A stretch of 64,000 nt of DNA, taken from assembly GCF_027247405.1 (NCBI RefSeq), contig NZ_CP097463.1, positions 62,001 to 126,000 of the forward strand. The letters are read 5' to 3'. This DNA is from Jatrophihabitans cynanchi. GTDB taxonomy: Bacteria > Actinomycetota > Actinomycetes > Mycobacteriales > Jatrophihabitantaceae. Every line of letters starts with the position of its first letter. The first letter of the stretch is position 1. Below the pieces are notes generated by a model. That model searched no databases. It saw nothing but the letters and a program-made list of their open reading frames with translations, and was not told where the DNA came from. Made by a program: the position numbers and the translations under genes. Of the stretch, positions 56,275 to 64,000 are shown in pieces.

Positions 56275-57693
56275 TCAGAGCGGCCGGACGACCGGCGGGC
56301 GCTGCAGGTGGTGGCGCGTCGCCTGCTCGAAGGCGTATCCGGCCTGCAGCACCGCGAGGTCGCCGTGGTGCGGCCCCACGACCTGCAGCCCGACCGGCAG
56401 CCCGTCGGCGGTGAAGCCGGCCGGCACCGACAGGGCCGGGCAGCCGGTCACCGTGACGAAATACGCCGACCGCATCCAGTCCAGGTAGGTCTGCTGCTCC
56501 TGGCCGGCCACAGTGGTCGGGTACTCCAGTGACGCGTCGAACGGCACCACCTGGCTGACCGGCAACAGCAGCAGGTCGTAGCGGCCGAAGAACTCGCGCA
56601 CCCGGTGGAACAGCTCGGCATGCAGCCGCTCGGCGCGCGCCAGGTCGGCACCGGTCAGTTTGCGCCCCTCGTCGACGTTCCAGACGATGCTCTCCTTGAG
56701 CAGCTCGGGCCAGCGGTCGCGGTGGCCGCCCAGCGACAGGTCGAACAGCCAGGCACGCAGCGTGCGGAACACGTCCTCGGCGCCGGCGAAGTCCGGGCAG
56801 TCCTGCTCGACCGTGCAGTCCAACTGTTCGAAGACGGCGACCTGCGGCGCGAGTGTGTCGGCGACGGCAGCGTCCACGCTCACCGCGCCGCCGAGGTCCG
56901 GCGACCACGCCACCCGCAGCCCGGTCAGGTCGCGGTCCAGCCCCGCGGCGAACCCAGCGCCGGGCTGGTCGATCGCGATCGGCGCGCGCGGGTCGGGGCC
57001 GGCCTGAGCCGAGAGCAGCAGCGCCGCGTCGGCGACCGTGCGCGCCATCGGCCCCTGCACCGACAGGGTCGACCACGGCGCCGCGCTCGGCCAGGTCGGG
57101 ACGCGGCCGGGCGAGGGCCGCAGCCCGACGACGTTGCAGAACGACGCGGGGTTGCGCAGCGAACCGCCCATGTCGCTGCCGTCGGCGAGTGGGGTCATCC
57201 CGCAGGCGAGCGCAGCCGCCGAGCCGCCGCTCGAGCCGCCGGCCGAGCGGCTCAGGTCGTACGGGTTGCGGGTCAGCCCGAACAGCGGGTTGAAGGTGTG
57301 CGAGCCGGCCGCGAACTCCGGAGTGTTGGTCTTGCCGAGCACGATCGCGCCGGCGCCCCGGACCCGTTCGACGACCAGTTCGTCGCGTTCGGGCACGTGA
57401 TCGGCCAGGATCGGCGAACCGTGTGTGGTGCGGATGCCGGCCGTCTCGTGGGTGTCCTTGACCGCTATCGGCAGGCCGTGCAACGGGCCCACGTCCGCAC
57501 CCGCCGCGAGCCGCTCGTCCGCCGCACGTGCCTCGTCGAGCGCCCGTTCGGCGACGAGCGTGACGACCGCGTTCACCTGCGGATTGACCCGTTCGATCTG
57601 GTCCAGGTGCGCCTGCGTCACCTCCCGCGCGGACACCTCGCGCCGGCGCAACAGCGCGGCGAGCTCGGTCGCGGGCAGGAAGCAGAGGTCCAC
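56275..57693 (-). CDS. Amidase signature family hydrolase
   Basis: 472 residues. Catalytic triad of the family is visible: Lys79 in LPIAVKDTHETAG, the cis-serine Ser154 in AGGSSGGSAAALACG, and nucleophile Ser178 in GSDMGGSLRNPASF (canonical GSDTGGS, with Met here). It hydrolyses C-N amide bonds. GTG 57693. Its start follows the barbiturase-family gene by four bases. In oxidative pyrimidine breakdown an amidase-type ureidomalonase follows barbiturase, so ureidomalonate or a similar acyclic ureide is one candidate substrate; this is inference from proximity. Confidence 0.9.
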   Translation of the reverse strand: MDLCFLPATELAALLRRREVSAREVTQAHLDQIERVNPQVNAVVTLVAERALDEARAADERLAAGADVGPLHGLPIAVKDTHETAGIRTTHGSPILADHVPERDELVVERVRGAGAIVLGKTNTPEFAAGSHTFNPLFGLTRNPYDLSRSAGGSSGGSAAALACGMTPLADGSDMGGSLRNPASFCNVVGLRPSPGRVPTWPSAAPWSTLSVQGPMARTVADAALLLSAQAGPDPRAPIAIDQPGAGFAAGLDRDLTGLRVAWSPDLGGAVSVDAAVADTLAPQVAVFEQLDCTVEQDCPDFAGAEDVFRTLRAWLFDLSLGGHRDRWPELLKESIVWNVDEGRKLTGADLARAERLHAELFHRVREFFGRYDLLLLPVSQVVPFDASLEYPTTVAGQEQQTYLDWMRSAYFVTVTGCPALSVPAGFTADGLPVGLQVVGPHHGDLAVLQAGYAFEQATRHHLQRPPVVRPL

Positions 57694-57697
57694 GCGA

Positions 57698-58810
57698 CTA
57701 GCGTGCGCCCAGATCGACGATCGCGGCGACCGGGCCGCCGCCGTCCGGGCCCTGGTGCGCTGCCGACACCGAGACGAACACGGCCGGATCGCCGGTCACG
57801 GCCGCGGTGACGCCGCCGACCGCCGCCTTGATCTGCCGGTGCCAGTGGACGTCCGAGTCGTCGAGCATCGCGTTGCGGCGCCCGCGCACGTGACCGTCCT
57901 GGCTGGCCTCGCACTTGAGGAAGACGTTCACCAGCCGACCGTCCAGGTCGGACGGGTGCGGCCGGTCGGGCAGCTCGAGGCCGGCGCTGCGGATCGCGTT
58001 CCAGATGCCGTCCTGGTCCAGGGCGTCGGTCATCACCGAGTGCCCGATTCGGTACCGGCCGCCGACGCCCGGCGCGTTGCCGACCACGACGACCTGCGCC
58101 CGGTCGAGCTCGACGCCGGAGGAGCACGAGGCCACCGACGAGTACAGCGAGCGGTCCCGCAGCACGTCCTCGTCCCTGGGCATGTCGATCTCGCCGAGGG
58201 CGACCGCGATGCCCAGTGCCGTGCCGCCGTTGGACACGTCCATCGAGGTCAACGTGTCCTCGGTGAACACGTCGTGGCCCCGGCTCTTCGCGTCGGAGAT
58301 CGTGTCCAGCGTGAGCAGCGGCGTCTTGGTCTGGACGTAGTGAACCTCGGCCGGGTCGGTGATGCCCGCGCGCTGCATCGCCACCTTCACCGCGTCGGCG
58401 ACCTTGCTGATCATCGCGGTGCGGCCGATGTCCTCGGGCAGCAGCACCTCGCTCATCGCGAAGCCCACGGTCAGCCGCGGCTCGTCGGTCTGCTCGGCCT
58501 TGTCGGCAGGCAGCGTGGCGAAGATCGTCGCGTGCGGGCTGATCACGCCGTCCGTGCCGCCGGACCAGACGATCGGCACCTCGCGCACCTGCTCCATCGT
58601 GCGGCTGCCCTTGTCGACCAGCACCTCGCGGAACGCGCGGTCGGCCAGGATCCGCGTGTAGTCGTTGACGCCGCCGTTGCCCTCGGTCTTGCCGATCACC
58701 GCGATGACGCGGTCCGCCTCGAGCACGCCGTCGTCGATGAGCTTGGCGAGTTCGCTCGCGTCGGTGACGCTGTGCAGCGGGACCTTGCGGACCTCGATCG
58801 GTTCGGGCAT
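57698..58810 (-). CDS. Ring-opening amidohydrolase (barbiturase / cyanuric acid hydrolase family)
   Basis: 370 residues of the small family with the three-repeat 'Toblerone' fold. Each repeat gives a Ser-Lys pair: [15 protein letters not shown] (~80-95), [23 protein letters not shown] (~230-252) and the C-terminal [21 protein letters not shown] (~345-365); lysines occur in [17 protein letters not shown] and IKAAVGG. The members open cyclic imides: barbiturate to ureidomalonate, or cyanuric acid to carboxybiuret. Sequence alone does not decide between them. ATG 58810; separated by 24 bases from carbamate kinase, four from the amidase, all same strand. Confidence 0.88.
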
Positions 58811-58834
58811 GGACGGTGCTCCTCGGGTTGGTGG

Positions 58835-59764
58835 TCAGGACGTGACGATAGTGCCGGCGGTGCCGCGCAGCGCCTCGCCGATGCGGTGCAGGGACGTGAT
58901 GACGGAACGGCCGCCGGTCTCGGCGAAGCGGCAGGCGGCCTCGACCTTCGGACCCATGCTGCCGCCGGCGAAGTGGCCCTCGGCCGCCAGGGCCCGCAGC
59001 TTGTCCACCGTGATCGCGCCGAGCGGGCGGGCCTGCGGGGTGCCGAAGCCGACGACCGCCGCGTCGACGTCGGTCGCGATCACCATCACGTCGGCGCCGA
59101 GCTGACGGGCGAGCACCGCAGCGGTCAGGTCCTTGTCGATCACGGCCTCGACGCTGAGCAGCGTCCCGTCGCCGTCACGCACCACCGGGACGCCACCGCC
59201 GCCGGAACAGGTCACCACGTACCCGGCGTCGAGCAGCACGGCCGCGGCGCAGGCGTCGAGCGACTCCAGCGGCTCGGGCGAGGCGACGACGCGCCGCCAG
59301 CCGCGCTCGCCGCGGTCCTGCCACTGCTGGCCGTGCTCGATCATCACGGCGGCCTCCGCGGCGGGCAGGTAGCGGCCGATCGGCTTGCTCGGTTCGGCGA
59401 AGTGCCGGTCGCCGGCAGCGACCAGGGTGCGCGACACGACCGCGGCGACCCGGGGCGCAAGACCGCGCCGGGCGAGGGCAGGCTCGAGGGCGTCCAGGAT
59501 CAGCATCGCGATCGTCCCCTGGGTCTGCGCCCCGCACCAGTCCAGCGGGACGGGCGGCACGATCGAGGCGGCGATCTCGTTCTTGACCAGTAGGTTGCCG
59601 ACCTGCGGGCCGTTGCCGTGCGTGAGCACGACCTGCGAGCCGGCGGCGACGACGTCGGCAACGGCCTCCATGGCCGCGGTGATCGCGGCGCGCTGGTCCT
59701 CCGGCCGGGCGCTGCCGTCGGGCGCCGTCATGGCGTTGCCCCCGAGAGCGATCAGCGCGCGCAT
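58835..59764 (-). CDS. Carbamate kinase
   Basis: About 309 residues. N-terminal MRALIALGGNAM, then VVLTHGNGPQVGNLL (carbamate/phosphate binding), PVPLDWCGAQTQGTIAML, VTCSGGGGVPVVRDGDG, VIDKDLTAAVLARQLGADV and the C-terminal GSMGPKVEAACRFAETGG are all family hallmarks. It converts carbamoyl phosphate and ADP to ATP, ammonia and CO2 in catabolic settings (or the reverse). No arginine deiminase genes are nearby; the association with ring-opening amidohydrolase suggests energy recovery from a ureido compound, which needs a transcarbamylase not seen in this window. Start ATG 59764 at the conserved N-terminus. Confidence 0.92.
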   Translation of the reverse strand: MRALIALGGNAMTAPDGSARPEDQRAAITAAMEAVADVVAAGSQVVLTHGNGPQVGNLLVKNEIAASIVPPVPLDWCGAQTQGTIAMLILDALEPALARRGLAPRVAAVVSRTLVAAGDRHFAEPSKPIGRYLPAAEAAVMIEHGQQWQDRGERGWRRVVASPEPLESLDACAAAVLLDAGYVVTCSGGGGVPVVRDGDGTLLSVEAVIDKDLTAAVLARQLGADVMVIATDVDAAVVGFGTPQARPLGAITVDKLRALAAEGHFAGGSMGPKVEAACRFAETGGRSVITSLHRIGEALRGTAGTIVTS

Positions 59765-59845
59765 GCCGCCGACGCTATTGACGCCGACGCCGCCGCGGCA
59801 TCGGCAATGTTCGCCCAATCCCGGGCTCGTGTTGGTGAGTTCGCC

Positions 59846-61333
59846 TCAGCCCGGCACGCCGAGGCGGCGGTAGCGGCCCAGCCGCTCGGCGACCAGGGCG
59901 TCGGTGTCACGGCGCAGCAGGGTGGCCAGCTCGTGTTCGAGCACCCGGCCCAGGCGTTGCAGGAACGCCGCGGGCTCGTCGGCCGCGTCCGGGTGCTCGA
60001 CGACGATGCGGTCGACGATGCCGTGCTCGAGCAGGTCCAGGCTGCGCACGCCCTGCTTGCCGGCCATCTCGGCGGCCCGTTCGGTGGTGTGGAACTTGAT
60101 CGCGGACGCCCCCTCGGGAGGCAGCGGTGAGAGCCAGGCGTGCTGCGCGCACAGCACCCGGTCGGCGGGCAGCAGCGCCAGCGCGCCGCCACCGCCGCCC
60201 TGGCCGAGCAGCACGCAGATCGTCGGCGCGCGCAGCGTGGTCAGTTCGGCCAGCGAGCGGGCGATCTCGCCGGCGAGGCCGCCCTCCTCCGCCTCCTGGC
60301 TGAGGGCCGCGCCCGCGGTGTCGATGACGGTGACGAGCGGCAGCCGCAGCTCGGCGGCCAGCCGCATGCCGCGGCGCGCCTCGCGCAGCCCGGCCGGACC
60401 CATCGGCCTGGCGGCGAACCGGCGGTCCTGACCGAGCAGCACGCAGGGTGCGTTGCCGAATCGCGCCAGTGCGATCAGCAGGCCGGGTTCGAGCTCGCCC
60501 TCGCCGGTGCCCTGCAGCGGCGTGACGGTGTTCGCGGCCACCTTCAACAGGGCCCGCACGCCGGGGCGTTCCGGGCGGCGCGAACGCAGGATCGAGTCCC
60601 AGGCCGGGACGTCGGGCAGCGGCTCGCGCGGCAGTTCGGGCACCGGCGGCGGCGCCTCGCGCGGCGCCGCCAGCACGGTGAGGGCGTCGATGGCCACGGT
60701 GCGCAGTTGCTCGGGCGAGACGACCGCGTCGACGAGCCCGTGCGCGGCCAGATTCTCGGCGCGCTGCACGCCGTCCGGGAAGTCGCTGCCGTACAGCGCG
60801 CGGTACACCCGCGGGCCGAGGAAGCCGATCAGCGCGCCCGGCTCGGCCGCGGTGACGTGCCCGAGCGAGCCCCACGAGGCGAGTACCCCGCCGGTCGTGG
60901 GGTGCCGCAGGTACACGACGTACGGCAGCCCGGCCGCCTTGTGCGCGGTCACCGCGGCGGAGATCTTCACCATCTGCAAGAAGGCGACGGTGCCCTCCTG
61001 CATCCGGGTGCCGCCGGACACCGGTCCGGCGAACAGCGGCAACCCCTCGGTGGTCGCTCGCTCCACCGCGCGCACCAGCCGCTCGGCCGCCGCCACCCCG
61101 ATCGAGCCGGCGAGGAACGCGAACTCGCACACCACGATCGCCACGCGCCGTCCGCCGAGCAGCGCCTCGCCGGTGACGACGGACTCGTCCAGCCCGGTGC
61201 GCCGGCGCGCCTCGTCCAGCTCGGCCCGGTAGGCGGCGTCCGGCACGGGACCGTCGACCGCGTCGTCCCAGCGGCGGAAGCTGCCCGGATCGGTGACCCG
61301 CTCCACCAACTCGAGCGCGCCGAGGCCACTCAC
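59846..61333 (-). CDS. Fused carboxyltransferase beta-alpha subunit (acyl-CoA carboxylase/decarboxylase-like)
   Basis: About 495 residues with two crotonase-like halves. The first (residues ~30-235) resembles AccD: VAIVVCEFAFLAGSIGVAAAERL, LPLFAGPVSGGTRMQEG, HPTTGGVLASWGSLG, GALIGFLGPRVYR; it lacks an N-terminal zinc finger. The second (~270-495) resembles AccA: VTPLQGTGEGELEPGLLIAL, LPLVTVIDTAGAALSQEAEEGG, GQGGGGGALALLPADRV. No biotin carboxylase or carrier is in the window. It may carboxylate an acyl-CoA or, working backward, decarboxylate malonyl-CoA-type thioesters. GTG 61333 overlaps the CoA-transferase stop by four bases, so the two are functionally linked. Confidence 0.85.
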   Translation of the reverse strand: MSGLGALELVERVTDPGSFRRWDDAVDGPVPDAAYRAELDEARRRTGLDESVVTGEALLGGRRVAIVVCEFAFLAGSIGVAAAERLVRAVERATTEGLPLFAGPVSGGTRMQEGTVAFLQMVKISAAVTAHKAAGLPYVVYLRHPTTGGVLASWGSLGHVTAAEPGALIGFLGPRVYRALYGSDFPDGVQRAENLAAHGLVDAVVSPEQLRTVAIDALTVLAAPREAPPPVPELPREPLPDVPAWDSILRSRRPERPGVRALLKVAANTVTPLQGTGEGELEPGLLIALARFGNAPCVLLGQDRRFAARPMGPAGLREARRGMRLAAELRLPLVTVIDTAGAALSQEAEEGGLAGEIARSLAELTTLRAPTICVLLGQGGGGGALALLPADRVLCAQHAWLSPLPPEGASAIKFHTTERAAEMAGKQGVRSLDLLEHGIVDRIVVEHPDAADEPAAFLQRLGRVLEHELATLLRRDTDALVAERLGRYRRLGVPG

Positions 61334-62478
61334 GTCGCCAGCCAGGCCCGGATCGCGGCGCCGTGCTGATCGAGCGTCGGCGGTGCGGCGTGCTCGCGCG
61401 GCGGCGCGCCGTCGAAGCGCAGCGGCGGCCCGGGCAGCGTGATCGTGCCCAGGGCGGCGTGCTCGACGTCGACGAGCAGCCCCTGCGAGCGGGTCTGCTC
61501 CCACTCGTACACCTCGCGCAGGTCGCGCACCTTGCCGGCCGGCACGCCCAGCTCGTCCAGCAGCGCCAGCACGTCTGCGGACGTGTGCCGGCCGAAGGCC
61601 TCGTTGACGGCGGCGATCACCGCGTCGCGGTCGCCGACGCGCTCCGGGTTCGTGGCCCACTGCGGCCGGTCCAGGCCGAAGGCGGGGGCGATCCGCCGCC
61701 AGAGCCCGTCGCTGCCGACCGCGATCTGCACCGGACCGTCGGCGGCGTGGAACAGCCCGTACGGGCAGATGGACGGGTGATGCTGGCCGGTCTGCCGCGG
61801 CACCTCGCCGGCCACCGTGTAGCGGGTGCCCTGGAACGCGTGGACGCCGACGATCGCCGCCAGCAGGCTGGTGCGCACGATCCTCCCGGCGCCCGTCCGC
61901 TCGCGTTCGTGCAGCGCGGCGACCACCCCGTAGGCGCCGTACATGCCGGCGAGCAGGTCCCCGATCGGCACGCCGACGCGGGTGGGTTCGTCAGGCGACG
62001 GGCCGGTCAGCGACATCAGTCCGGCCTCCCCCTGCGCGATCTGGTCGTACCCGGCGCGGCCGCCCTCGGGGCCGTCGTGACCGAACCCGCTTATCGACAA
62101 GACGACCAGGCGCGGGTTCAGCGCGTGCAGCCGGTCGGTGTCGAAGCCGAGCCGATCCAGGACCCCCGGCCGGAAGTTCTCGACGAGCACGTCGGCGCGT
62201 TCGATCAGCGCGGTCAGCGTCTCGCGGCCGTCGTCGCTCTTGAGGTCGAGCGCGATCGACTCCTTGTTGCGGTTGCACGACAGGAAGTACGTCGAGTGGC
62301 GCTCACCGTCACTGCCCTGGATGAACGGCGGTCCCCACGATCGGGTGTCGTCGCCGCCGGACGGTGACTCCACCTTGATCACGCGAGCACCCAGATCGCC
62401 GAGCATCATCGCCGCGTGCGGCCCGGCGAGCGCCCGGGACAGGTCGACGACTAGGACGCCGTCCAGCGGACCGCTCAC
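61330..62478 (-). CDS. CaiB/BaiF family (type III) CoA-transferase
   Basis: About 382 residues. LDGVLVVDLSRALAGPHAAMMLGDLGARVIKVE is the family start; the catalytic aspartate region follows at GVPIGDLLAGMYGAYGVVAAL, and GRIVRTSLLAAIVGVHAF, WATNPERVGDRDAVIAAV and HAALGTITLPGPPLRF complete the pattern. It moves CoA between carboxylic acids by a formyl-CoA-transferase-type mechanism, so it can activate the acid released by the upstream hydrolases. GTG 62478 overlaps the PhzF stop (GTGA). Confidence 0.92.
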   Translation of the reverse strand: MSGPLDGVLVVDLSRALAGPHAAMMLGDLGARVIKVESPSGGDDTRSWGPPFIQGSDGERHSTYFLSCNRNKESIALDLKSDDGRETLTALIERADVLVENFRPGVLDRLGFDTDRLHALNPRLVVLSISGFGHDGPEGGRAGYDQIAQGEAGLMSLTGPSPDEPTRVGVPIGDLLAGMYGAYGVVAALHERERTGAGRIVRTSLLAAIVGVHAFQGTRYTVAGEVPRQTGQHHPSICPYGLFHAADGPVQIAVGSDGLWRRIAPAFGLDRPQWATNPERVGDRDAVIAAVNEAFGRHTSADVLALLDELGVPAGKVRDLREVYEWEQTRSQGLLVDVEHAALGTITLPGPPLRFDGAPPREHAAPPTLDQHGAAIRAWLAT

Positions 62479-63266
62479 AGTTCGATCGTCCCGTCCAGCA
62501 CGGTCACGGCCGAGCCGGTCAACACGACCCGGTCGCCCGCCACCCGGGTGCCGACCCGGCCACCGCGCCGGGAGGCCTGGTAGCCGAGGAGCGTGTCGCG
62601 TCCCAGCTTCGCCGACCAGTACGGCGCAAGCACGGTGTGTGCGCTGCCGGTCACCGGGTCCTCGTTGACGCCGACGCGCGGCGCGAAGAACCGTGACACG
62701 TAGTCGTATCCGCTGCCGGGTTCGGCGGCCGCGGTGACGATCACGCCGCGCGCCTCGACAGCGGCGAGTGCGCCGATGTCGGGACGCAACTCGCGCACCG
62801 TCTGCTCGTCCGCGAGCTCGCACAGCAGGTCGTCGGTGCCGCCGCGTCCCACCCAGCGAGGCGTGCCGCCGAGCGCGGCGGACAGTCCGGGCGGCTCGGC
62901 GCACTCGGTGGCCGGCCGGGCCGGGAAGTCCAGCGCGTACTCCTCGCTCGAGCGGTTCACGGTGAGGGTGCCGCTGCGGGTGTCGAACGCGACGGGCGAC
63001 GGGACACCGTCGGCGAACAGGCAGTGCGCGGTGGCCAGGGTCGCATGTCCGCACAGGTCGACTTCGGTGCCGGGGGTGAACCAACGCAGCCGGTAGCCGC
63101 CGGCGGACGGCACAGCAAAGGCGGTCTCGGACAGGTTCAGCTCGGCCGCGATCGCCTGCAGCACGGCGTCAGCAGGGTACTCGTCGAGCACCACCACGCC
63201 GGCGGGGTTGCCGCTGAACGGCTTGTCGGCAAAGGCATCCACGGTCCTGATTCGCACGCCGTTCAC
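62475..63266 (-). CDS. PhzF family isomerase/epimerase-like protein
   Basis: 263 residues of the diaminopimelate-epimerase-like fold: RIRTVDAFADKPFSGNPAGVVVLDEYP, a catalytic Glu in AELNLSETAFAV, LRWFTPGTEVDLCGHATLATAHCLF, and SRFFAPRVGVNEDPVTGSAHTVLAPYW. PhzF-like proteins catalyse hydrogen shifts in small acids; most have unknown substrates. GTG 63266 overlaps the hydantoinase stop by four bases (GTGA); an in-frame GTG nine bases later also fits. Its place between a hydantoinase and a CoA-transferase suggests an isomerase step in the same pathway. Confidence 0.92.
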   Translation of the reverse strand: MNGVRIRTVDAFADKPFSGNPAGVVVLDEYPADAVLQAIAAELNLSETAFAVPSAGGYRLRWFTPGTEVDLCGHATLATAHCLFADGVPSPVAFDTRSGTLTVNRSSEEYALDFPARPATECAEPPGLSAALGGTPRWVGRGGTDDLLCELADEQTVRELRPDIGALAAVEARGVIVTAAAEPGSGYDYVSRFFAPRVGVNEDPVTGSAHTVLAPYWSAKLGRDTLLGYQASRRGGRVGTRVAGDRVVLTGSAVTVLDGTIEL

Positions 63267-64000
63267 CCTAGGTGGTCGAACTCGGACGACGCGGCGCCCC
63301 CGGACAGTCGCGCGTAGCCGGGGCCACGGTCGAAGAACGGCCGTTCCCCGGGACGCTCGGCGCGCAGCCGGGACCGCAGCGCGCCGGTTGCGTCCGGGTC
63401 GGCGGACGGCGCGTCGGCGGGGCCGGTGATCACGACGCCGTAGTCGCGTTCGGCCGCCGCGCGGGACACCTTGCCCCACAGCACGTCCTGCACCACGAGC
63501 TGGACGTCGCGCTCGATCGGGTCGCCCCAGCCGCCGCCGCCGGTGGTGCGGATGCGGATCACCGTGCCGGCCGGGACGAACTCGGCGTCGACCAGGGCGT
63601 CGACGTCGTGCTCCCCCGGCCCGCCCGGGTCGATGGTGACCTGGAACGGCTGCCCCGCCCTGCCGCCGCGCACGCCCCAGCAGGCCAGGATCGAGCGGTC
63701 GGCGATGGACATGAAGTGCGCGTCGCGGCGCATCCGGATGTGCTTCTCGTAACCGAGGCCGCCACGGAACTGCCCGGCACCGCCTGAGTCGACGGCCAGG
63801 CCCAATCGTTCGACGATGAAAGGGAATCGTGACTCGGTGAACTCGGTGGGCAGGTTCCGCGAATCGGGCACGACGTGGATGGTGTCCTCGCCGTCGGCGT
63901 AGTAGCGCCCGCCCGACCCGCCGCCGAGCACCTCGCGCATCAGGTACGGCTCACCCGCGTCGTCGGTGCCGTAGACGCCGGTGTACCGGATCGTCTCCTG
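63263..64000 (-). CDS. Hydantoinase B/oxoprolinase family subunit, C-terminal part (runs off right edge)
   Basis: The visible 245 residues belong to the C-terminal half of HyuB-type N-methylhydantoinase/5-oxoprolinase subunits: RYTGVYGTDDAGEPYLMREVLGGGSGGR at the edge, PTEFTESRFPFIVERLGLAVDSGGAGQFRGGLGYEK (diagnostic), and TTGGGGWGDPIERDVQLVVQDVLWGKVS. The frame is open to base 64000; the start and presumably the HyuA partner lie beyond the window. These ATP-dependent enzymes open cyclic imides or lactams. It is the most upstream visible gene of the overlapping catabolic operon. Confidence 0.92.
   Translation of the reverse strand, partial: QETIRYTGVYGTDDAGEPYLMREVLGGGSGGRYYADGEDTIHVVPDSRNLPTEFTESRFPFIVERLGLAVDSGGAGQFRGGLGYEKHIRMRRDAHFMSIADRSILACWGVRGGRAGQPFQVTIDPGGPGEHDVDALVDAEFVPAGTVIRIRTTGGGGWGDPIERDVQLVVQDVLWGKVSRAAAERDYGVVITGPADAPSADPDATGALRSRLRAERPGERPFFDRGPGYARLSGGAASSEFDHLG

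Follow-up and report, generated by a model that had tools for sequence, protein, structure and literature searches.

The locus described here raises the question of why a gene for carbamate kinase (CK) should stand beside a gene for a ring-opening amidohydrolase of the AtzD/Bar family. It lies at the right-hand end of a 64,000-nucleotide stretch of Jatrophihabitans cynanchi (the window; contig NZ_CP097463.1, positions 62001 to 126000 of a 4.52-Mb single-contig genome with 99.67% completeness, one of 24 genomes compared from its family). We consider it probable, from sequence comparison, that the operon running into the window, together with a gene set 12 to 24 kb away, specifies a phosphorolytic, ATP-yielding form of oxidative pyrimidine degradation that would proceed without release of urea. 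The evidence carrying this reading is the identity of the ring opener as a barbiturase, the linkage of its gene to CK, the co-occurrence of barbiturase with AllG (a subunit of the AllFGH transcarbamylase), the grouping of the AllG proteins concerned in one clade, and the lack of urease over the cut-off in the host genome.

The ring opener is encoded on the minus strand at window positions 57698 to 58810 (PF09663, 489.6 bits; TIGR02714, 598.7 bits). Its nearest relative in the PDB is 5hwe, “Barbiturase” (681 bits across residues 1 to 368), and its scores against cyanuric acid amidohydrolase structures do not exceed 326 bits. The portion of PMC3758960 on specificity distinguishes Bar (Asn194, His324, Lys328, Val348, and Ser349) from AtzD (Arg195, Thr321, Arg325, Gly345, and Gly346) and defines group VI of the family by Asn, His, Lys, Val, and Ser/Ala at these sites. 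The window protein carries all five Bar residues (N194, H324, K328, V348, and S349); in an alignment of 14 actinobacterial rows the first four never vary, whereas Ser, Gly, and Ala all occur at position 349. K41, K162, and K299 and S83, S230, and S347 are likewise invariant in the 14 rows and, as the alignment reads, would form the three Ser-Lys pairs of the Toblerone fold named in PMC3758960. Published accounts of the first site differ, since a passage of PMC4051656 gives glutamine where the window protein shows Asn194 and PMC3758960 gives Asn. Judged by its sequence, the enzyme is a barbiturase of group VI of the AtzD/Bar family. The initial annotation had left a choice between barbiturase and cyanuric acid hydrolase; the former stands, and the latter is ruled out by the five Bar-type residues despite a score of 482 bits, over a cut-off of 360, with the NCBI cyanuric acid amidohydrolase model NF052395. 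That model seems over-wide, and the name it gives to this barbiturase looks wrong. The product of barbiturase, in the relevant part of PMC3758960, is 3-oxo-3-ureidopropanoate (ureidomalonate).

Five more distant AtzD-family proteins (loci L060, L061, L081, L082, and L083; genomes G191, G050, G297, G181, and G192) are 39 to 43% identical to the barbiturase. Their genomes lack AllG, an amidase match lies beside the AtzD-family gene in three of the five, and the proteins possibly have a different ring-opening activity.

The CK gene (about 58835 to 59764, minus strand; TIGR00746, 322 bits, under the cut-off of 358; NF009007, 288 bits, over the cut-off of 266) precedes the barbiturase gene with a gap of 24 bp. 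Among 80 named barbiturase loci, the best 80 of at least 541 confirmed relatives of the window protein, 72 have CK upstream of barbiturase at a distance of no more than 500 bp, an association of genes that exceeds chance. A comparison of neighborhoods across Actinobacteria, as the initial annotation had proposed, thus bears out the pairing of CK with barbiturase. The same annotation had advised looking for a regulator, a transporter, and an FdrA/DUF1116 transcarbamylase to the right of the window, and all three are encoded in a second gene set at genome positions 132842 to 144238 (L003), 12 to 24 kb right of the barbiturase gene and about 20 kb from the operon. One part of this set (132842 to 140553, minus strand) comprises CoxG, the molybdopterin, 2Fe-2S (recognized by eye), and FAD subunits of a molybdenum hydroxylase, an NCS2 permease, and the regulator PucR. 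Divergent from it are AllH (140581 to 141372; weak similarity only, with no NCBIfam match), AllF (141369 to 142850; PRK06091, 392.7 bits, under the cut-off of 433), and AllG (142847 to 144238; PF06545, 329.5 bits, over the cut-off). These three genes are consecutive, so all three transcarbamylase subunits are encoded together. Identity to the Escherichia coli proteins is 38% for AllF, 48% for AllG, and 42% for AllH (over 95 residues only), and CK is 42% identical to AllK/YbcF. The E. coli AllFGH is a proven transcarbamylase that interconverts oxalurate plus phosphate and oxamate plus carbamoyl phosphate, and its genes form one operon with that for the carbamate kinase AllK, as set out in the sections of PMC11326118 concerned.

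The gene set is not peculiar to this locus: the core of the cluster was found repeatedly across Actinobacteria, in both the named loci and a wider draw from the phylum. In genome G075 (overlapping stretches L072 and L235), PucR, barbiturase, NCS2 permease, xanthine dehydrogenase (XDH)-type genes, CoxG, and an amidase match occupy one cluster, which continues with CK, AllH, AllF, AllG, HyuA, HyuB, and CaiB. In G279, barbiturase, AllF, AllG, XDH-type genes, CoxG, HyuA, and HyuB lie on one strand of a single stretch with other genes interspersed. Because of these one-piece clusters, the two operons of the host are best read as halves of a single pathway.

Barbiturase and AllG also occur together at the genome level. 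An AtzD-family gene is present in 27 of 396 actinobacterial genomes drawn from the phylum, with at least 69% identity to the window protein in 22 and 39 to 43% in 5. AllG (PF06545), searched in a same-size draw with the same handles, is present in 49 of 396: each of the 22 barbiturase-type genomes has it, as do 27 of the 374 without a barbiturase-type enzyme, and the 5 with a distant AtzD-family protein lack it (22/22 versus 27/374; Fisher P = 7e-23). Within the host's own family of 24 genomes, barbiturase and AllG are each found in 13 and both in 12, i.e., AllG in 12 of 13 barbiturase genomes versus 1 of 11 others; the mismatches come from G397 and G416, whose assemblies are broken into 470 and 670 contigs, respectively. 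A search of 48 genomes of the named set, which included six of the seven loci without CK in the locus (L145 was left out), found AllG in 45, the three without it being the three Rhodococcus genomes. Full-length CK was found in 43 of these 48 and weak kinase-family matches in all of them. Where a barbiturase-linked CK could be placed (42 genomes), AllG shares the contig of that CK in 38, at a distance of 5.8 to 39.4 kb (median, 23 kb), and lies on a different one in 4; the linked CK is about 20 kb from AllFGH in the host genome and contiguous with AllF and AllG in L235, L238, and L239.

The AllG proteins of barbiturase genomes are themselves distinct. In a tree of 60 rows, built by a quick method with several long branches flagged and without the partial AllG of G415, AllG from 32 barbiturase genomes forms one group (Shimodaira-Hasegawa-like approximate likelihood ratio test, 96), joined by a single other row, from G416, and the E. 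coli AllG falls outside it. The barbiturase label changes twice on the tree, versus a mean of 19.8 times when shuffled. This clustering is partly due to shared descent. Genome G386 has two AllG copies (L219, G386:C76, and L119, G386:C223), one within the clade and on the contig of its barbiturase and the other outside it. Two sites within conserved motifs stand out. At the site of E. coli His385, glycine is found in 32 of 32 barbiturase-genome proteins, and the 27 other rows (among them G416 and the second G386 copy) have His in 19, Asp in 4, Gly in 3, and Ser in 1. At the site of E. coli Met54, all 32 have Ala, Cys, or Thr, and the other 27 have Met in 17, Ala in 2, Thr in 1, and larger residues in the remainder. 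Both replacements are by smaller residues and would suit a longer acceptor. The AlphaFold model of AllG has a mean predicted local distance difference test score of 93.2, and only 3clq, a structure of no known function, matches it at an E value of ≤0.001. The out-of-clade AllG gene of G386 has a match to AllF and a partial match to CK beside it.

We propose the following pathway, in which the barbiturase step is assigned by sequence and every other reaction is predicted. (i) Uracil would be imported by the permease, which scores 356 bits with the RutG model, 276 with uracil permease, and 151 with xanthine permease, all under the cut-off. (ii) The molybdenum hydroxylase (FAD, 2Fe-2S, and molybdenum subunits with CoxG) may oxidize uracil to barbiturate. 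The molybdenum subunit (L003:1475-4030) passes NF040766, “aerobic carbon-monoxide dehydrogenase, group 5” (1510 bits; cut-off, 950), but its PDB scores are highest for quinoline 2-oxidoreductase (439 bits, versus 374 for CO dehydrogenase and 163 for xanthine dehydrogenase), which suits a hydroxylase of N-heterocycles, and the model's name seems wrong for it. (iii) Barbiturase would convert barbiturate to ureidomalonate. (iv) AllF-AllG-AllH could then phosphorolyse ureidomalonate by analogy with the E. coli AllFGH reaction on oxalurate; ureidomalonate is oxalurate lengthened by one CH2, and the same reaction would therefore yield malonamate and carbamoyl phosphate. (v) CK, in the direction that we favor, would use carbamoyl phosphate and ADP to form ATP, NH3, and CO2, so that urea would not be formed and urease would not be needed. 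(vi) The amidase is predicted to hydrolyse malonamate to malonate, the CaiB protein to convert malonate to malonyl-CoA, and the carboxyltransferase-like protein to convert malonyl-CoA to acetyl-CoA. In outline this supports the initial annotation: a cyclic ureide is opened, ATP is probably gained from carbamoyl phosphate via CK, and the carbon probably ends as acyl-CoA.

The enzymes proposed for the carbon skeleton are encoded on the minus strand on either side of CK and barbiturase. The amidase-signature enzyme (56275 to 57693; PF01425, 361 bits; NF005686, 547 bits), a putative malonamate (malonic monoamide) amidase or, alternatively, ureidomalonase, shares 45% identity with the amidase whose gene directly follows that for barbiturase in Rhodococcus erythropolis. 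Its family includes malonamidase E2 (88 bits), which may serve as a precedent for malonamate hydrolysis, and an amidase of the window type lies within the fetched flanks of 18 of the 80 named loci. The CaiB/BaiF class III CoA-transferase (61330 to 62478; PF02515, 406 bits), proposed to be an acyl-CoA:malonate CoA-transferase, matches no NCBIfam model better than that for succinate-glutarate CoA-transferase (337 bits, short of the cut-off of 750). The fused AccD-AccA-like carboxyltransferase (59846 to 61333; PF01039 and PF03255), a candidate malonyl-CoA decarboxylase, scores 186 bits with the AccD model TIGR00515 versus 41 with malonate decarboxylase beta, and its gamma match is weak. Of the 80 named loci, 49 have CaiB and 16 have the AccDA-like protein, whose gene is a same-strand neighbor of CaiB in 12 of the 16, including the three Rhodococcus loci. 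The carboxyltransferase is associated with CaiB more than with the ring opener. No gene for biotin carboxylase or a carrier protein is among the identified genes of the operon; biotin carboxylase-like genes elsewhere in the host genome could supply partners in trans. The combination of CaiB with a carboxyltransferase fold and no biotin partners in the operon suggests a conversion of malonate via malonyl-CoA to acetyl-CoA.

The foremost alternative is the classical hydrolytic route, in which the amidase would be ureidomalonase, malonate and urea would be formed, and AllFGH and CK would serve something else. Malonic acid and urea are indeed the known end products of oxidative degradation in the account available in PMC3758960; an amidase of the same family directly follows the R. 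erythropolis barbiturase gene, and that of the window adjoins its barbiturase. The fate of urea speaks against this route. The best urease alpha match in the host genome is 25.6 bits (cut-off, 680), and the best urea carboxylase match is 480 bits (cut-off, 1304), covering only positions 2 to 434 of the 1,201 in the profile. A gene for urea use, expected of the hydrolytic route though not defining for it, is thus lacking over the cut-off, and a route releasing urea would waste its nitrogen in this host. Urease alpha is over the cut-off in all three Rhodococcus genomes versus 8 of 45 other named genomes (P of approximately 0.01, hand-calculated). The joint occurrence of barbiturase and AllG (22 of 22 and 45 of 48 genomes) also weighs against it, the position of CK next to barbiturase (72 of 80 loci) is left without explanation by a urea route, and the amidase appears in just 18 of the 80 loci. 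We regard this route as unlikely here, and the hydrolytic splitting of ureidomalonate cited in the initial annotation is probably replaced by phosphorolysis.

A second alternative is that AllFGH and CK serve oxalurate from purine or allantoin breakdown, the region being a mixed nucleobase island. Oxalurate is the proven substrate of E. coli AllFGH and is the AllFGH substrate dealt with in the corresponding parts of PMC11326118 and PMC12625717, and the region contains PucR and XDH-type genes, which belong to families commonly associated with purines. Oxalurate as the substrate here is nevertheless disfavored by the finding of AllD (ureidoglycolate dehydrogenase in E. coli) in none of the 24 genomes of the family, in a search for which the E. 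coli control was positive (AllB, AllC, and AllE were not searched). In addition, the AllG clade tracks barbiturase, even within G386, where the in-clade copy is the one near the barbiturase; the permease is closer to RutG than to xanthine permease; and the molybdenum subunit is closer to quinoline 2-oxidoreductase than to xanthine dehydrogenase (439 versus 163 bits). We consider an oxalurate pathway quite improbable. An s-triazine pathway in which the ring opener acts as a cyanuric acid hydrolase, as its score of 482 bits with the NCBI model might imply, is barely credible given Bar-type residues at five of five positions and 681 bits with the barbiturase structure against 326 with the best cyanuric acid amidohydrolase.

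Several observations weigh against the phosphorolytic pathway, or limit the evidence for it. The 80 named loci are the top matches to the window protein, and the sample is therefore biased toward that protein; the 22 barbiturase-type genomes of the phylum draw fall in seven coded families and so are not independent cases. AllG in 27 of 374 genomes without a barbiturase-type enzyme indicates that AllFGH serves other pathways too, and allFGHK genes found beside biuret hydrolase genes in nitrifiers are assigned to oxalurate in the portion of PMC12625717 concerned. Glycine at the His385 site also occurs in 3 of the 27 other AllG rows (one of them G416, within the clade), the AllG of the host genome has Thr rather than Ala at the Met54 site, and no AllF residue specific to barbiturase genomes was found in the alignment. 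In the host, AllFGH sits in an operon apart from CK and barbiturase, and full-length CK was not found in two Streptosporangiaceae assemblies that carry both barbiturase and AllG. No simple rule divides the two routes by urease, since 8 of the 45 named genomes with AllG, and 5 of the 13 members of the host's family that have barbiturase, show a urease match over the cut-off. Finally, HyuAB is common beside the core yet has no step in the proposed scheme.

HyuB (window positions 63263 to 64000 being its C-terminal part; genome positions 125263 to 127134, minus strand; PF02538, 464 bits) and HyuA, which was sought at the right edge of the window and lies just beyond it (genome positions 127131 to 129239, minus strand; PF01968, PF05378, and PF19278), occur in 50 and 41 of the 80 named loci, respectively. 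The nearest solved relative of HyuA is N-methylhydantoinase (469 bits), which makes an ATP-dependent ring opening by HyuAB likely, and HyuAB accompanies XDH-type genes in both the urea-releasing and the AllFGH type of route. That it acts on a thymine-derived ring is a guess. The closest hint to its role is the arrangement in L208 to L210, three genomes without barbiturase in which the XDH-type molybdenum subunit, HyuA, HyuB, AllF, and AllG run together, and these clusters hint that HyuAB might stand in for barbiturase. However, L207 and L210 also carry another candidate ring opener: similar genes (L207:4854-5660 and L210:7523-8380) lie near AllF-AllG in genomes without barbiturase, and the product of the L207 copy bears a weak resemblance to arylformamidase (41 bits, under the cut-off). 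They could encode an enzyme of unrelated type that opens the same ureide ring or one like it. A role for HyuAB as a substitute for the transcarbamylase was ruled out, as HyuA and HyuB share clusters with AllF and AllG (L235, L236, and L238) and HyuA is also present in R. erythropolis, which lacks AllG.

In order of transcription the operon reads HyuA-HyuB-PhzF-CaiB-carboxyltransferase-CK-barbiturase-amidase, all on the minus strand; the seven same-strand genes previously reported within the window are all present by open reading frames (ORFs) and profile matches. Start codons were chosen among in-frame codons of the ORFs, and overlaps and gaps depend on them. With these starts the reported 4-base overlaps were recovered, and HyuA/HyuB outside the window adds another, giving overlaps at the first four junctions (HyuA/HyuB, genome positions 127131 to 127134; PhzF/HyuB, window positions 63263 to 63266; CaiB/PhzF, 62475 to 62478; carboxyltransferase/CaiB, 61330 to 61333). 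The barbiturase-amidase gap is 4 bp. The initial annotation singled out PhzF and the carboxyltransferase beside a barbiturase as unusual. For PhzF (62475 to 63266, minus strand; PF02567, 220 bits) this holds, as it had no match in the 80 named loci or 40 other loci within the stretches fetched and was seen only in the host cluster, of which it is a weak member; the carboxyltransferase, in contrast, has its regular partner in CaiB. Between the two operons of the host, upstream of HyuA on the same strand, is a DUF222/HNH endonuclease gene (L002:17370-18731).

A wider, energy-conserving pathway for both uracil and thymine in many Actinobacteria may be imagined, and we put it forward as a doubtful though conceivable extension. 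The molybdenum enzyme would make barbiturate and 5-methylbarbiturate; barbiturase would open the ring of barbiturate and ATP-dependent HyuAB that of 5-methylbarbiturate; both ureido acids would be phosphorolysed by the AllFGH clade; and CaiB with the AccDA-like protein would act as a CoA-based, biotin-free decarboxylase yielding acetyl-CoA from malonate and propionyl-CoA from methylmalonate. No description of an ATP-saving version, or of barbiturase paired with carbamate kinase, was found in the open-licence literature, and an earlier report elsewhere is possible. If the phosphorolytic pathway is correct, oxidative pyrimidine breakdown exists in two forms, one urea releasing (Rhodococcus) and the other phosphorolytic, ATP yielding, and urease free, with gene content pointing to the latter in most of the Actinobacteria with barbiturase that were surveyed here (22 of 22 and 45 of 48 genomes). 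AllFGH transcarbamylases would gain a second natural substrate, and the position of CK beside barbiturase would be explained. The pathway would also provide candidate genes for uracil dehydrogenase, to which, to our knowledge, no genes have been assigned.

Three known systems can be compared with the proposed pathway. In the biotin-independent malonate decarboxylase MdcA/D/E, malonate is moved to a thioester and then decarboxylated. The AccD/AccA-like protein of the operon resembles this system in its weak MdcD- and MdcE-type model matches; it differs in scoring far better as AccD and in the replacement of MdcA and the acyl carrier protein by a CaiB-family CoA-transferase.

The Rhodococcus route is closer. 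A 2002 paper on barbiturase reportedly found ureidomalonase in R. erythropolis JCM 3132. This is the strain of the barbiturase work in the pertinent part of PMC3961730. The R. erythropolis barbiturase (L142) is 86% identical to the window protein, and the cluster in strain NBRC 15567 is much like that of the host, comprising barbiturase, then amidase, RutG-like permease genes, XDH-type genes, CoxG, and a HyuA match, with CaiB and an AccDA-like gene alongside. It is without AllFGH and CK; AllG and full-length CK were not found in the three Rhodococcus genomes searched, whereas the host genome has AllFGH and CK.

The third system, the allFGHK operon of E. coli, has homologues here for AllF, AllG, AllH, and CK, and the same chemistry is proposed for them. 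The AllG proteins differ in forming a separate clade, with Gly and small residues in place of His385 and Met54, and the genes differ in their company: in E. coli they are linked to AllC, AllD, and AllE, and here they are linked to barbiturase.

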